From: Candidatus Levybacteria bacterium GW2011_GWA1_37_16
GTDB taxonomy: Bacteria > Patescibacteriota > Microgenomatia > Levybacterales > UBA12049
Length of the DNA: 55,413 bases
Assembly (NCBI GenBank): GCA_943357985.1
Contig: CALRGR010000006.1
Coordinates: 1-55,413, forward strand
Reading direction: 5' to 3'
Under the pieces are notes generated by a model that was not told the origin of the DNA, searched no databases, and saw nothing but the letters and a program-made list of their open reading frames with translations. Positions 3 to 47,343 of this stretch are shown here, piece by piece. The first letter of the stretch is position 1. Every line of letters begins with the position of its first letter. The position numbers were made by a program, and so were the translations under genes.

Positions 3-1439
3 TCTGACTGTATCCAGCAGCCCGGCTCGGGAACAAGCTGCACAAATCAGCAATGCGTTGACCGCGGCCCTGTCACAATTTCGGGAAACATATTCACGGA
101 TTACAATGCAAATAGAATAAAGGACCCAGCCGAACCTACTTCTTCCTGCACGTATAATATAAGCGCTACTTATTTTAGTGCTCCTGGCGTTACCCCGGCT
201 CCGACCCCGGCCCCAACGGTTGGTCCGGGTTGTTATGGCGGATACCTTAGTGCCTGTCTTTATAATTGCGGCTTAGCAGGATATAACTGCCCAAATGGTG
301 GAAATAATTATTGTCCTTCCGCCTGTGCGCCTCTACCAACACCAATACCAACACCAATACCAACGCCTGCTCCCGTTGCCGTAAATCAAAGCGGAAGCAG
401 TTATTCTATAGCTAGTTCTCTGTACGGAACTTATACAGTTACTGCTTCTACTACATGCGGCACATTTACAGAACCGGCAGGCGGTTCTTTCTCTGTTATT
501 GCCGGCAATCAGCAAGTGTGCAGTACCGGCGGTTCTGCAAACGCATCATGCTATCTTGGCGGAATTAAAAACCTGCATTTTGGAGTAAAAGGCAATAATC
601 CATGGATTCAGTCAATTGGGGCCGACATAAGGCAAGACAGCGGGTTTTCCCAGCAGATTCCGGCAAATGCGTCCTGCGGTTCCTATGCATCTTTGCCAGG
701 CGCCGGCGGTTCTCCTGGGATTATTTATTCGGGAGGGAGTACTTCAAGCTTTGGAAGTGGACAAGCATCATCTACAAATTGGGTTGCAGGAGGAGCCACT
801 TATCCGTCAAACTATACTCCAGCCCGTCCAAATCTTATCCGTACGTCCTACAATTATCTTTTCTCAGTCGCAAAGCTTGCAGCTATTACACCTATTGATA
901 TTGGTATCTACTGTGCGGGCGGACTAAATGATTGTACGCTTCCTTCAAATCTTCCAAATGGTCTTTATATTTCAAATGGAAGCCTCACATTATCAAGCAC
1001 AACGTATACTTTTCCGGCAAACAAAAACTTTGTCATACTGGTAAACGGAAACTTGAATCTAAAAGGTAAAATATTAGTGCCAAGCGGTTCAACTGCCACA
1101 TTTTCATCTTCGGCAGACATAACAGTTGACAGAGGGGTTGGGCAAGCTAGTGTTTCTTCTACCAACTCTGATGTTGAAGGATTTTACTCAGCAGACAAAA
1201 ACTTTATAGCAGACGGGAATAATAACTGCGGAATAGGAACAGATCTTAGACTAAATATTGCAGGAGCAATTGTTGTAAACGCGGCACTGTCCGGCGGAAC
1301 TTTCCAGAATAACAGAAACCTTTGCGGAGGCAATGACAATTGTCCTGCGTTTTCAGTAAAAGAAAGACCGGATTTCGTACTTAATGCTCCTGAGTTTATA
1401 AAGCACCCAAGCTACATCTGGCAGGAATTAGCGCCGTAA
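3..1439 (+). CDS. Cys-rich surface-like protein upstream of pil genes (5' end missing)
   Basis: The reading frame is open from the window edge, so the N-terminus lies outside; 478 residues are visible. Two proline/threonine linkers (TPAPTPAPT near residue 58 and PTPIPTPIPTPAP near residue 112) separate cysteine-rich segments from a C-terminal region of about 300 residues rich in Asn, Ser, Gly and short beta-like strands. The linkers and the absence of membrane segments in the visible part suggest an extracellular, modular protein. It lies 20 bases before a PilX-like gene and pilMNO on the same strand, so a role as a pilus-associated or adhesive component is inferred from position. I recognise no enzymatic motif. 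A GTG at 516 is an internal codon, not the start. Confidence 0.75.
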   Translation, partial: SDCIQQPGSGTSCTNQQCVDRGPVTISGNIFTDYNANRIKDPAEPTSSCTYNISATYFSAPGVTPAPTPAPTVGPGCYGGYLSACLYNCGLAGYNCPNGGNNYCPSACAPLPTPIPTPIPTPAPVAVNQSGSSYSIASSLYGTYTVTASTTCGTFTEPAGGSFSVIAGNQQVCSTGGSANASCYLGGIKNLHFGVKGNNPWIQSIGADIRQDSGFSQQIPANASCGSYASLPGAGGSPGIIYSGGSTSSFGSGQASSTNWVAGGATYPSNYTPARPNLIRTSYNYLFSVAKLAAITPIDIGIYCAGGLNDCTLPSNLPNGLYISNGSLTLSSTTYTFPANKNFVILVNGNLNLKGKILVPSGSTATFSSSADITVDRGVGQASVSSTNSDVEGFYSADKNFIADGNNNCGIGTDLRLNIAGAIVVNAALSGGTFQNNRNLCGGNDNCPAFSVKERPDFVLNAPEFIKHPSYIWQELAP

Positions 1440-5725: not shown

Positions 5726-6397
5726 TTATTTTGTTTTTTCCTCAAGTCCTTCGTTTGATAGTGCATTCTCCGCAGCATCTTTTTCTGCATCTTGCTTTGA
5801 GCGGCCCTTACCTATTCCTAAAACTCTATCATCTATTGTTACTTTTACTGTAAATACTTTATTGTGGGCTGGGCCTTGCTCATCTACAACTTTATACAAA
5901 AGATGAGATTGTCCTTTTGATTGAACAAATTCCTGAAGCAGGCTTTTTGCATCTTTTAAAGTTTTATCCGCCAGTGTTTCTGCCTTAGGAAGTAAAACTT
6001 CATTTAAGAATTGCGAAACTGCAGTAATTCCCTGGTCTATAAATAACGCTCCAACATATGCCTCAAAACTATCTGCCAGAAGGCTTTTGTTTTCTCTTCC
6101 TTTTAGTTGTTCTTCTCCCTTGGAAAGCCTCAAAAGACTTCCGAATTCAAGATTTCTTCCGACTTGCGCAAGGCTTTCGGTGTTTACCATTAGAGACCGC
6201 ATATTTGTGAGCTCTCCTTCATTGAAATTGGGATACTTTCTATATAAAAACTCAGAAACTACAAATGAGATTATGCTGTCTCCTAAAAACTCCATTCTTT
6301 CATTTGAAGAAATATCTTCTTTTGTTTCATTAAGATATGATCTGTGAGTAAATGCCTGAGTAAATAAATTTTTATTTTTGAGTTTTGGTAATGCCAT
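5726..6397 (-). CDS. rnc: Ribonuclease III
   Basis: RNase III cleaves double-stranded RNA during rRNA maturation and mRNA decay. The 223-residue protein has the signature [10 protein letters not shown] at residues 32-41, the second acidic pair in [14 protein letters not shown] (Asp109, Glu112) and a C-terminal double-stranded RNA-binding domain at about 150-215. It overlaps the end of nusB by 26 bases, so the two are read from one message. Confidence 0.96.
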
Positions 6398-6740
6398 CTT
6401 TTATAATATTTCCAAGCGCGCCGTTTATAAACGCCGGGCTTGTTTCTCCTCCGTACTCTTTAGAAAGTTCTACTGCTTCATCAATTATAACTTTTGGCGG
6501 CTGACTTTTCTCTATTAGAAGTTCATATGTGGCAAGACGCAAAATTGCCAAGTCAATTTTGTTTATTTTATCAATTGGAAATTCCGGAGCAGCTTTTTCA
6601 ATATAAGCATTAATAAAATCTTTATTTTCAATTATGGTTTTTGCATCATTGATTACTGGTTGTTTATGAAAATCAAACTTAAATAAAGCTTCAACTATTT
6701 TTTGTCGTTTTTTGTGCCTTGGGTCAAGAGCGGTTTTCAT
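6372..6740 (-). CDS. nusB: Transcription antitermination factor NusB
   Basis: A 122-residue all-helical NusB fold: an N-terminal RQKIVEALF-like helix, then [19 protein letters not shown] and the conserved [17 protein letters not shown] followed by FINGALGNI. NusB with S10 binds boxA RNA and supports rRNA transcription antitermination. It is sandwiched between rpmF (one-base contact) and rnc (26-base overlap). Confidence 0.93.
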
Positions 6741-44588: not shown

Positions 44589-45632
44589 TTACTTTTTTGG
44601 TAATTGTGAGGGTTGAAGTATTACGATGTCCCCTTCTGATAATCCACTTACTATCTGACTGTCTGAATCATTTTTAAATCCTAGCTTTACAGTTTTTTTA
44701 ACTATGCCAGAAGAAGTTTTTACATAAACGCTGTTTCCATCTATTGCAAAATTTGAAACAGTTAATATATTTTTCTTTTCCGCAAGAATAATTTCTGCGT
44801 CTGCATTCATGCCAATTCTGTATAGCTTGTCTGCATTGTCTAATAAATCTGTTTTGATTGTATATGCATTTCCGCCTGTTGATGTTGTATGGCTTGAGAA
44901 ATCAATACTTGAAACAGTTAGGGTGATAGTATCGTTTGGGAAAGAATCCAAAACGATTCTTACTTGTTGTCCTATTTTAATTTTAGATACGTCTGCTTCA
45001 TCTACATCCATTTTAAATAACAAATTTTTGCTATCTGCAACTTGATATGTTGTGGTAGTTGAAACATCAGCTCCCGGAATTATTGCGTCCGCTCTTATTA
45101 TGGAGCCGTTTAATGGGCTTACTAGGCTTGAGTCTGCAAGTTGCTTTCTAGCTATTATATAATCGTCGTAAGCGTTGTTTTGAGTTGCTTCTGCGGCGGT
45201 TTGTGTTACTTTTTGAGCAAAAGTTAAATCGGTTGCTCTTTTTGTTTGATCATAGACTTGCTCAACAACTGCTTTTGCTGCATTAAAATCTTGCCATGCT
45301 TGTCTAAGATTTGCCTGGAGTTTTGTTGAATCAATAGATGCAATTATTTGTCCCTTGTAAACGCTCTCGCCAACCCTTGCTCCAACATATGTTAGCTGTC
45401 CTAACGTTTGGAAAGTTAAGCTAGCAGAACTTGTTGAATCAACACTCCCTGTTACGGAAACGCTTTGAATAATATCTGAATATTTAATGGTTTGAGTTTC
45501 TAGAACTGCGGCTGGTTTTGGTTTTATAACAAACCCAATAACAACAATAACAATAATTAAAACCGCAGAAATTATTTTGTGATCCTTAATAAAGGAAAGT
45601 GGTTTTTTAAATAAGTTTTTTATTTTTTTCAT
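44589..45632 (-). CDS. MacA/HlyD-like membrane fusion protein
   Basis: I start at ATG 45632 (MKKIKNLFKKPLSFIKDH), 347 residues, since the ORF extension crosses a tRNA fragment. A single signal anchor (IISAVLIIVIVVIGFVI) is followed by a biotinyl-lipoyl-like hairpin (VSVTGSVDSTSSASLTF; ASIDSTKLQANLRQAWQDFNAAKAVVEQ), a beta-barrel (KIKIGQQVRIVLDSFPNDTITLTV) and a membrane-proximal domain. It links the ABC exporter to the exterior. Its upstream region is the scar of the tRNA-Arg island. Confidence 0.9.
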   Translation of the reverse strand: MKKIKNLFKKPLSFIKDHKIISAVLIIVIVVIGFVIKPKPAAVLETQTIKYSDIIQSVSVTGSVDSTSSASLTFQTLGQLTYVGARVGESVYKGQIIASIDSTKLQANLRQAWQDFNAAKAVVEQVYDQTKRATDLTFAQKVTQTAAEATQNNAYDDYIIARKQLADSSLVSPLNGSIIRADAIIPGADVSTTTTYQVADSKNLLFKMDVDEADVSKIKIGQQVRIVLDSFPNDTITLTVSSIDFSSHTTSTGGNAYTIKTDLLDNADKLYRIGMNADAEIILAEKKNILTVSNFAIDGNSVYVKTSSGIVKKTVKLGFKNDSDSQIVSGLSEGDIVILQPSQLPKK

Positions 45633-45639
45633 TTTGTTT

Positions 45640-45664
45640 GTGCGCCTGAAGGGAATCGAACCCC
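45640..45664 (-). repeat. Partial tRNA-Arg 3' end (attachment-site-like direct repeat)
   Basis: The 25 bases match the T-arm and acceptor end of tRNA-Arg(TCG) (47138-47162) at all but two positions, in the same orientation. No D-arm or anticodon arm precedes it, so it is a fragment. It bounds the caspase-like gene on the far side of the tRNA. Confidence 0.8.
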
Positions 45665-45675
45665 TGCCTGCAATT

Positions 45676-47118
45676 TTAAGTTTGGACATTGGGGTCAATA
45701 GGTCTACCCTTAATGAAGGTGATAGTTTTAGCTCCAGGGAATTTTACTTTAAAAAATAATTTGCCACCTTCTTCAGTTATTTTGAACGATGAACTACCGG
45801 CAGTATCTTCACTTGGAGCGATAATTGTCCCATAGCTTTCAGATATGAGACTGGCAATTCCTTTTTCGCTTTTTCCCGTACTGCATGAAATCAAAACAAT
45901 AGTGGGGTTATCAGTGAAATAACCAGAGTACTTTGCCATACGTTCTCTTTTAAAAACACTGTCAATAAAAAATTCAGGGTAGCTTAATCTTTGTTCGGAA
46001 GAGTCGTCCTTACCAAATTCTATAGTGTTTTTATCTCCATGTCCTCCTACAATTGCAAATGAAATTTTATGACTGTCTCCATATTTCCTAGACAATTTAT
46101 GTAGTCGTTTAACAATATCTAACTTACCATTTGTTTCAACCACCCGTAGCGAATACTTCCCTTTTAATTGTTTCCGCAGACTATTCAGTCCTTTTCTGGT
46201 CTCATAAAATGCTCCGTTATGATCAAAAGAGTTAAATAGAATTACTCCGTATGGGAGATCTGTTTTGTCTACTTCATCGTACTGGGCTATCAGCATTTCT
46301 TCAGGATAACGTGCAAAGTTGCATATTCCAAATTGTTTATTTAAAAGAGTGCCAATTCCTGGCCTTTTTTTTTCAAGACTAACCAAAGCATTAAGATTTT
46401 CACTCACAACGAATACACCAGGAGAAGAGTCAAGCCATCTATCAATCAACTCGCTAGAATCAATGCCTAAATTATTTAGCTTATCTCTAATAAATCTAAT
46501 GGCTATCTCCTGTCCATGTCCTTTATGGTAAAAAGCAACACTTAGATAGTGATCCATCATTTGAGTTAATGCTTCGTCTGCTTTTCCTGCAGTATCTTTA
46601 TCATCCGATGAACCTGCCATTTCCAAAGCAGCAAAAGTAACAATTGGACTCACGCCAGATTCCAAATAATTAAGTTTTAGAAGATTAAGATTCCGTACGA
46701 AAATTTCGGTTGCTTTTCTTTTATCCCTACCTTGTCCAAATGCTACGATAGCTTCGGCACACTGGTTTCGTGTTTTCAAAGTGTCCTTACCTACGGGATT
46801 AGATAAATGCGATTCAATTACATCTAGATTTTCTTCTACTAAATCCAACCCTAATAGGACTGAAGATTCCATTTTTGAATTTCTTTCTAAAATGTTAATA
46901 ACCTCAATGGCAGAATTAAAGTAATCATCTGTTCTCAAAGCTTGCGACAATAAACTTTTCTTGGAAGAGAAAGCAATATAAAGCCTTTCCGGATCCGGAC
47001 TACGGAGTGCGTTGCTGTGTAACTCGCTACTGAGTTCTTCAAATTCTGCTTCTGTAAAATTACTTACTGGTCCTTGCTGACCTGGAATACCATTTCCTTC
47101 ACCTTTAATCTCTGTCAT
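45676..47118 (-). CDS. Caspase-like (clan CD) protein on a tRNA-Arg island
   Basis: The 480-residue protein has a long helical N-terminal part (residues 1-260, HEAT-like in pattern) and a C-terminal alpha/beta domain. This domain shows YGVILFNSFDHNGAFYETRKG, then His360 in FAIVGGHGDKNTIEFG and Cys412 in TIVLISCSTGKSEKGIASLIS. A His-Gly after one hydrophobic strand and a Cys after the next is the dyad of clan CD peptidases (caspase, CHAT, gingipain). No signal peptide is seen, so it probably acts in the cytoplasm. It is the only gene between tRNA-Arg and a copy of its 3' end. Confidence 0.65.
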   Translation of the reverse strand: MTEIKGEGNGIPGQQGPVSNFTEAEFEELSSELHSNALRSPDPERLYIAFSSKKSLLSQALRTDDYFNSAIEVINILERNSKMESSVLLGLDLVEENLDVIESHLSNPVGKDTLKTRNQCAEAIVAFGQGRDKRKATEIFVRNLNLLKLNYLESGVSPIVTFAALEMAGSSDDKDTAGKADEALTQMMDHYLSVAFYHKGHGQEIAIRFIRDKLNNLGIDSSELIDRWLDSSPGVFVVSENLNALVSLEKKRPGIGTLLNKQFGICNFARYPEEMLIAQYDEVDKTDLPYGVILFNSFDHNGAFYETRKGLNSLRKQLKGKYSLRVVETNGKLDIVKRLHKLSRKYGDSHKISFAIVGGHGDKNTIEFGKDDSSEQRLSYPEFFIDSVFKRERMAKYSGYFTDNPTIVLISCSTGKSEKGIASLISESYGTIIAPSEDTAGSSSFKITEEGGKLFFKVKFPGAKTITFIKGRPIDPNVQT

Positions 47119-47138
47119 ATATAATTTTCCTATTCTAG

Positions 47139-47211
47139 TGCGCCTGAAGGGATTTGAACCCCCAACCCCTTCGTCCGAAGCGAAGTGCTCTATCCATTGA
47201 GCTACAGGCGC
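47139..47211 (-). tRNA. tRNA-Arg(TCG)
   Basis: Acceptor GCGCCTG/CAGGCGC with A73, D stem GCTC/GAGC, anticodon loop CTTCGGA, T-loop TTCAAAT. Its 3' part is repeated at 45640-45664. Confidence 0.95.
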
Positions 47212-47264: not shown

Positions 47265-47337
47265 GGGCCGCTAGCTCAACTGGCAGAGCAATTCCCTCTT
47301 AAGGAATCGGTTCGGGGTCCGACTCCCCGGCGGCTCA
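47265..47337 (+). tRNA. tRNA-Lys(CTT)
   Basis: Acceptor GGGCCGC/GCGGCTC (one G-U) with A73, anticodon loop CTCTTAA. The T-loop is TCCGACT, with C at position 55 instead of the usual T. Confidence 0.93.
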
Positions 47338-47343
47338 CAGGAA

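Follow-up and report, generated by a model that had tools for sequence, protein, structure and literature searches.

Peptidases of family C14, comprising caspases, metacaspases and orthocaspases, share the caspase fold, in which the histidine of a GHG motif and the catalytic cysteine follow adjacent strands. The TPR-CHAT protein Csx29 of type III-E CRISPR systems combines helical repeats with a subsequent His/Cys caspase-like protease. A signal transmitted via the TPR region of Csx29 positions the catalytic histidine and cysteine and thereby activates the protease (PMC10028731). On the level of DNA, tRNA-integrated islands and integrase-less hitchhiker elements (CIMEs and tycheposon-like elements) comprise a direct repeat of a tRNA 3' end, while the tRNA itself is restored. 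CIMEs are known as deletion remnants located between att sites. Hitcher elements depend on functions that are supplied from elsewhere (PMC11389934). The locus described here resembles both groups, since it combines a protein of helical repeats and a predicted caspase fold with a direct repeat of a tRNA 3' end.

The window, i.e. the whole stretch of DNA that was analysed, has a length of 55,413 nucleotides. The features of the locus are as follows:

44589-45632, minus strand: MacA/HlyD-like membrane-fusion gene (Pfam HlyD_D23, E 7e-12)
45640-45664, minus strand: 25-nt fragment of the tRNA-Arg 3' end (T arm and 3' strand of the acceptor), one copy of the direct repeat
45676-47118, minus strand: ORF of a 480-aa protein with predicted caspase fold, sole gene of the insert
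45697-46251, minus strand: C-terminal caspase-fold domain, residues 290-474 (AlphaFold2, Foldseek)
45883-45885, minus strand: codon of Cys412 in the SCSTG motif, proposed catalytic cysteine, invariant in 24 homologs
46039-46041, minus strand: codon of His360 in the GHG motif, proposed catalytic histidine, invariant in 24 homologs
46276-47052, minus strand: N-terminal, all-helical repeat region, residues 23-281 (AlphaFold2 model)
47138-47162, minus strand: last 25 nt of tRNA-Arg, second copy of the direct repeat
47138-47211, minus strand: intact tRNA-Arg(TCG) (ARAGORN; Rfam tRNA, 70.3 bits)
47265-47338, plus strand: tRNA-Lys(CTT), kept alongside tRNA-Arg(TCG) at this place in several relatives

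The preliminary description of this DNA had reported a copy of the last 25 bases of tRNA-Arg, with two changes and in the same orientation, at a distance of 1.5 kb. The comparison of the fragment GGGGTTCGATTCCCTTCAGGCGCAC with the end of tRNA-Arg GGGGTTCAAATCCCTTCAGGCGCAC confirmed this, showing two mismatches over 25 nt in direct orientation, with the copies 1,498 bp apart. This corresponds to the direct repeat that characterizes a tRNA-integrated genomic island. Based on the base composition, about 5e-10 such matches would be expected in 1.5 kb. Among the direct repeats flanking the caspase-like gene, the tRNA-Arg repeat reached a score of 19 compared to 10 for the runner-up, and no detached 3' copy was found for any other of the window's 14 tRNAs. 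As also described before, a single protein of 480 residues lies between the copies, being encoded by the only ORF of at least 80 aa. Its ATG is located 19 nt beyond the end of tRNA-Arg and its stop codon, said to abut the tRNA fragment, 11 nt ahead of it. The fragment in turn ends 7 nt ahead of the ATG of the membrane-fusion gene. This gene indicates what originally adjoined tRNA-Arg, and the fragment is likely the displaced original 3' end of the tRNA. The G+C content fails to set the insert apart, and scans for promoters and terminators yielded no more than was obtained with shuffled sequences.

The comparison with related genomes that had been recommended revealed empty sites. The membrane-fusion gene was detected in 34 of the 73 genomes of the same family. 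In G054, G057, G004 and G005, which belong to other genera of this family, tRNA-Arg(TCG) lies upstream of it on the same strand, at distances of 56, 22, 80 and 152 nt, respectively. This order of tRNA-Arg and membrane-fusion gene corresponds to the state to be expected prior to the insertion, so that empty sites as required for a tRNA-integrated genomic island exist in four genomes. G034, an incomplete genome of the same genus, yielded no hit for either the caspase-like or the membrane-fusion gene and can therefore not be used as an empty site. A comparison of the tRNAs themselves showed that the first 49 nt of tRNA-Arg are identical in the window, G054, G057 and G004, while all three differences between the window and these relatives fall within the last 25 nt. 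The fragment keeps the G of the relatives in the TTCGA motif, which the intact copy of the window has lost. This pattern fits a 3' end replaced by incoming DNA and, with three positions, gives weak support to it. At the tRNA-Arg(TCG) sites checked in relatives, no comparable close copy of the 3' end was observed 1.5 kb downstream. Altogether, the scar and the four empty sites bear out the proposed integration at the tRNA 3' end; the one-gene tRNA insertion is real and cleanly delimited, and its origin by integration is well supported.

Further observations were made at the tRNA-Arg loci of relatives. In L014 (G046, ~1150-1344, minus strand), tRNA-Arg is apparently split at the anticodon arm by an insert of ~120 nt, which holds a complete, different tRNA-Arg(TCG) and carries the short inverted ends CTCGCC/GGCGAG. 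Matches restricted to the 3' half were also obtained by the tRNA search in G024 and G036. L007 (G058) comprises a different tRNA-Arg(TCG) at 2705-2777, followed by an apparent relic of the usual 3' half (TCGGACGAACGGG ... GGGGTTCAACTCCCTTCAGGCGCGC), which suggests repeated replacement at this locus. In L022 (G001), a small GIY-YIG-like ORF or remnant is located directly behind tRNA-Arg (1051-1124).

The tRNA replacements and older tRNA-Arg relics at the same locus in L014 and L007 would be in line with an origin of the repeat without site-specific recombination: a duplication would have placed one copy of tRNA-Arg on either side of the gene, or the tRNA would have travelled together with the gene, and degradation of the copy adjoining the membrane-fusion gene would then have left a 3' fragment. 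However, the fragment has a sharp boundary at the T arm and lacks any degraded 5' part, and both the gene order of the empty sites and the sequence pattern match an insertion at the tRNA 3' end, which makes such a duplication very improbable.

For the insertion at the tRNA 3' end, it is assumed that a one-gene insert of 1.5 kb entered the 3' end of tRNA-Arg(TCG) via site-specific recombination. The incoming DNA would have rebuilt the 3' end of the tRNA, and the original end would have been displaced by 1.5 kb to its present position next to the membrane-fusion gene. The earlier statement that an integrase is absent holds true: the ORFs between the repeats comprise none, in contrast to the integrase of its own expected for a tRNA island, and the only two tyrosine recombinases of the genome lie outside the island and are both Xer-like by length and sequence. 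Since the insert contains no recombinase, we infer either an enzyme acting in trans, namely Xer or a helper, or a recombinase gene that was lost by deletion.

A more extensive deletion would lead to a different origin, namely the reduction of an integrative element of larger size (prophage or integrative conjugative element) to its att sites with one cargo gene between them. In agreement with this, both att-like repeats have remained intact and Patescibacteria genomes lose DNA. Nonetheless, the gene fills the insert except for 19 nt on the side of the tRNA and 11 nt on the side of the fragment, and such an exact trimming on both sides is unlikely; moreover, the insert contains no remnant of an integrase or phage gene. 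Due to this tight fit between the repeats, the trimming of a larger element appears less natural, and this origin is regarded as rather unlikely.

For the encoded protein, a His-Gly/Cys dyad of clan CD type behind a helical repeat region had been proposed from the sequence, together with a structure prediction as a check. In the AlphaFold2 model, residues 23-281 form helices and residues 290-474 an alpha/beta domain, for which a separate prediction gave a pLDDT of 88 and a pTM of 0.87. In a Foldseek search of this domain against the PDB, 50 of 50 among the matches listed were caspases (best E 4.8e-5, probability 1.00), with modest TM-scores of ~0.38. Within the model, strand 352-358 ends at His360 and strand 401-410 at Cys412, which are the positions of the catalytic residues in caspases. 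Both residues were found at the places given before, and in an alignment of 24 homologs only L259, D299, E328, H360 and C412 (window numbering) are invariant among the residues of the domain. According to the model, the His-Cys dyad thus ends adjacent strands as in the clan CD fold, and the predicted caspase fold of the 480-aa protein is well supported.

Neither a signal peptide nor a membrane segment was evident on inspection of sequence and model by eye. The protein is probably a cytosolic, stand-alone cysteine protease of caspase-like type. The helical-repeat region may sense or bind a trigger and subsequently free the C-terminal caspase-fold domain, whose His360/Cys412 pair would then cleave protein targets. 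By analogy to Csx29, we propose a stand-alone sensor-protease.

None of the models in Pfam, NCBIfam, PADLOC and PHROGs describes the family of this protein. Similarity to Pfam models was limited to DUF4347 (PF14252), which gave 15.4 bits for residues 323-443; since this lies below the cut-off of 24.6, membership was rejected, and none of the other homologs matched DUF4347 (20 homologs tested against Pfam). An assignment to C14 (PF00656) was rejected as well, with a Pfam match in 0 of 20 homologs, and a C14 search of the window's genome also gave no match. The same holds true for CHAT (PF12770), for which no Pfam match and an hhalign probability of 6 were obtained. Compared to this, hhalign against the C14 domains of Patescibacteria gave a probability of 74.5 (E 2.7e-5) with histidine and cysteine in register. 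By profile comparison, the family is closer to C14 than to CHAT, and model matches place it in neither of them; it is undescribed and unnamed.

Iterative searches detected homologs in 3 of 73 genomes at the level of the family, 12 of 374 at that of the class and 10 of 380 at that of the phylum, where the genome of the window is part of all three counts. The caspase-like family accordingly occurs in ~3% of the sampled genomes of the phylum, sporadically and in single copies. The named records belong to Levybacteria, Liptonbacteria, Berkelbacteria, Doudnabacteria, WS2, Magasanikbacteria and two unclassified bacteria, i.e. all of them come from candidate phyla (CPR) or from bacteria without classification. 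When the contigs of GTDB were searched by pattern, the single protein gave 0 matches, and a subset alignment recovered homologs. Neither tblastn against phages and plasmids nor pattern scans of viral contigs detected a homolog, so that a phage or plasmid carrier was not seen. The homologs show no grouping by host family in their tree, which is poorly resolved.

At 21 homolog loci (gene names assigned by eye), the gene stands alone, with differing neighbours and no recurring partner. The neighbours are mostly housekeeping genes, including purine synthesis, secA, recG, pnp, map, rplI and others. Genes of toxin-antitoxin or phage-like type adjoin 4 of the 21 homologs as a raw count. These are a ParE-like pair in L065 (7339-7913), a PIN/Phd pair in L070 (4619-5256), a RhuM-Fic gene in L122 (5778-6752) and a Bro-N gene in L123 (2346-3188), and a link to mobile or conflict genes is possible.

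The preliminary description had further called the gene tRNA-borne and suggested a search for homologs next to tRNA genes. For the window this is correct, and 3 of 27 homologs (window, G126 and G560) start on the same strand less than 20 nt from a tRNA 3' end, compared to 2 of 257 other genes of the same loci (Fisher p 0.007; p = 0.04 once the window is left out). The gene of G126 lies 19 nt behind tRNA-Trp and that of G560 ~4 nt behind tRNA-Ile, neither with a repeat, and the homolog of G062 lies 413 nt behind tRNA-Ser. As a general rule, the claim does not stand: most homologs are located elsewhere, and a scar sought at the other homologs was found at none, leaving the window as the only one with a repeat. 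A 12-nt repeat in L064 was rejected as a tRNA scar, as it sits inside pepQ and probably occurs by chance. In relatives of G126 (L139, L140 and L134), the gap between tRNA-Trp and pepQ contains different genes in each relative, which indicates a variable spot. In L034 (G062), a small GIY-YIG-like ORF or remnant was observed at 6100-6480, directly behind tRNA-Ser.

The sparse distribution, the changing neighbourhood and the lack of a partner gene suggest a conflict role as the likeliest one, i.e. that of a mobile anti-phage or cell-death effector, with the chances about evenly balanced. This is also in line with reports that the genes transferred in Patescibacteria are enriched in defence functions (PMC12455944) and that CPR genomes are densely equipped with defence systems (PMC12259885). 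PADLOC gave no match for the protein of the window and scattered, weak single matches among the homologs, none of them convincing, and the neighbourhoods of the homologs are not defence islands. The unmatched defence models and the housekeeping neighbours in many genomes (purine synthesis, secA, recG, pnp, rplI) could also point to a protease with an ordinary regulatory or housekeeping function inside the cell, or to an effector directed against the host bacterium of the epibiont rather than against phages. A housekeeping function is disfavoured by the occurrence in only ~3% of the genomes at a new location each time. A secretion signal would have supported an effector of this kind, but neither a signal peptide nor a membrane segment was evident by eye in sequence and model. 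Both are considered doubtful.

Taken as a whole, the explanation that a self-contained gene for a sensor-protease was acquired horizontally, became fixed at a tRNA through site-specific recombination and acts as a mobile conflict effector has about as much for it as against it. In a further generalization, integrase-less single-gene cassettes would shuttle among the tRNA 3' ends of CPR bacteria via Xer or a helper, one cargo being a one-protein caspase-like immune or suicide effector; this is improbable.

If the proposed explanation is true, bacteria whose genomes lie well below 1 Mb harbour an unnamed one-gene caspase-like family about as often as recognised proteases of CHAT or C14 type, i.e. 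in ~3% compared to ~2% of the sampled genomes. The lone gene of a sensor-protease would then represent a minimal unit for studying the function and the spread of a caspase-type switch, and at a tRNA it could serve as a self-contained, portable switch for defence or cell death. The clean scar left by one gene at a tRNA also raises the question of single-gene insertion in genomes nearly without recombinases of their own.

Compared to CIMEs and tycheposon-like elements, the insert of the window consists of a single gene of 1.44 kb and comprises no integrase, relaxase or packaging genes. Compared to C14 peptidases, in which the cysteine lies in a D-x-C-H-S-G motif, the family shows SCSTG and adds long N-terminal helical repeats. 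While Csx29 combines a pseudo-domain with an active domain, the protein of the window comprises one predicted caspase domain and stands without a CRISPR partner.
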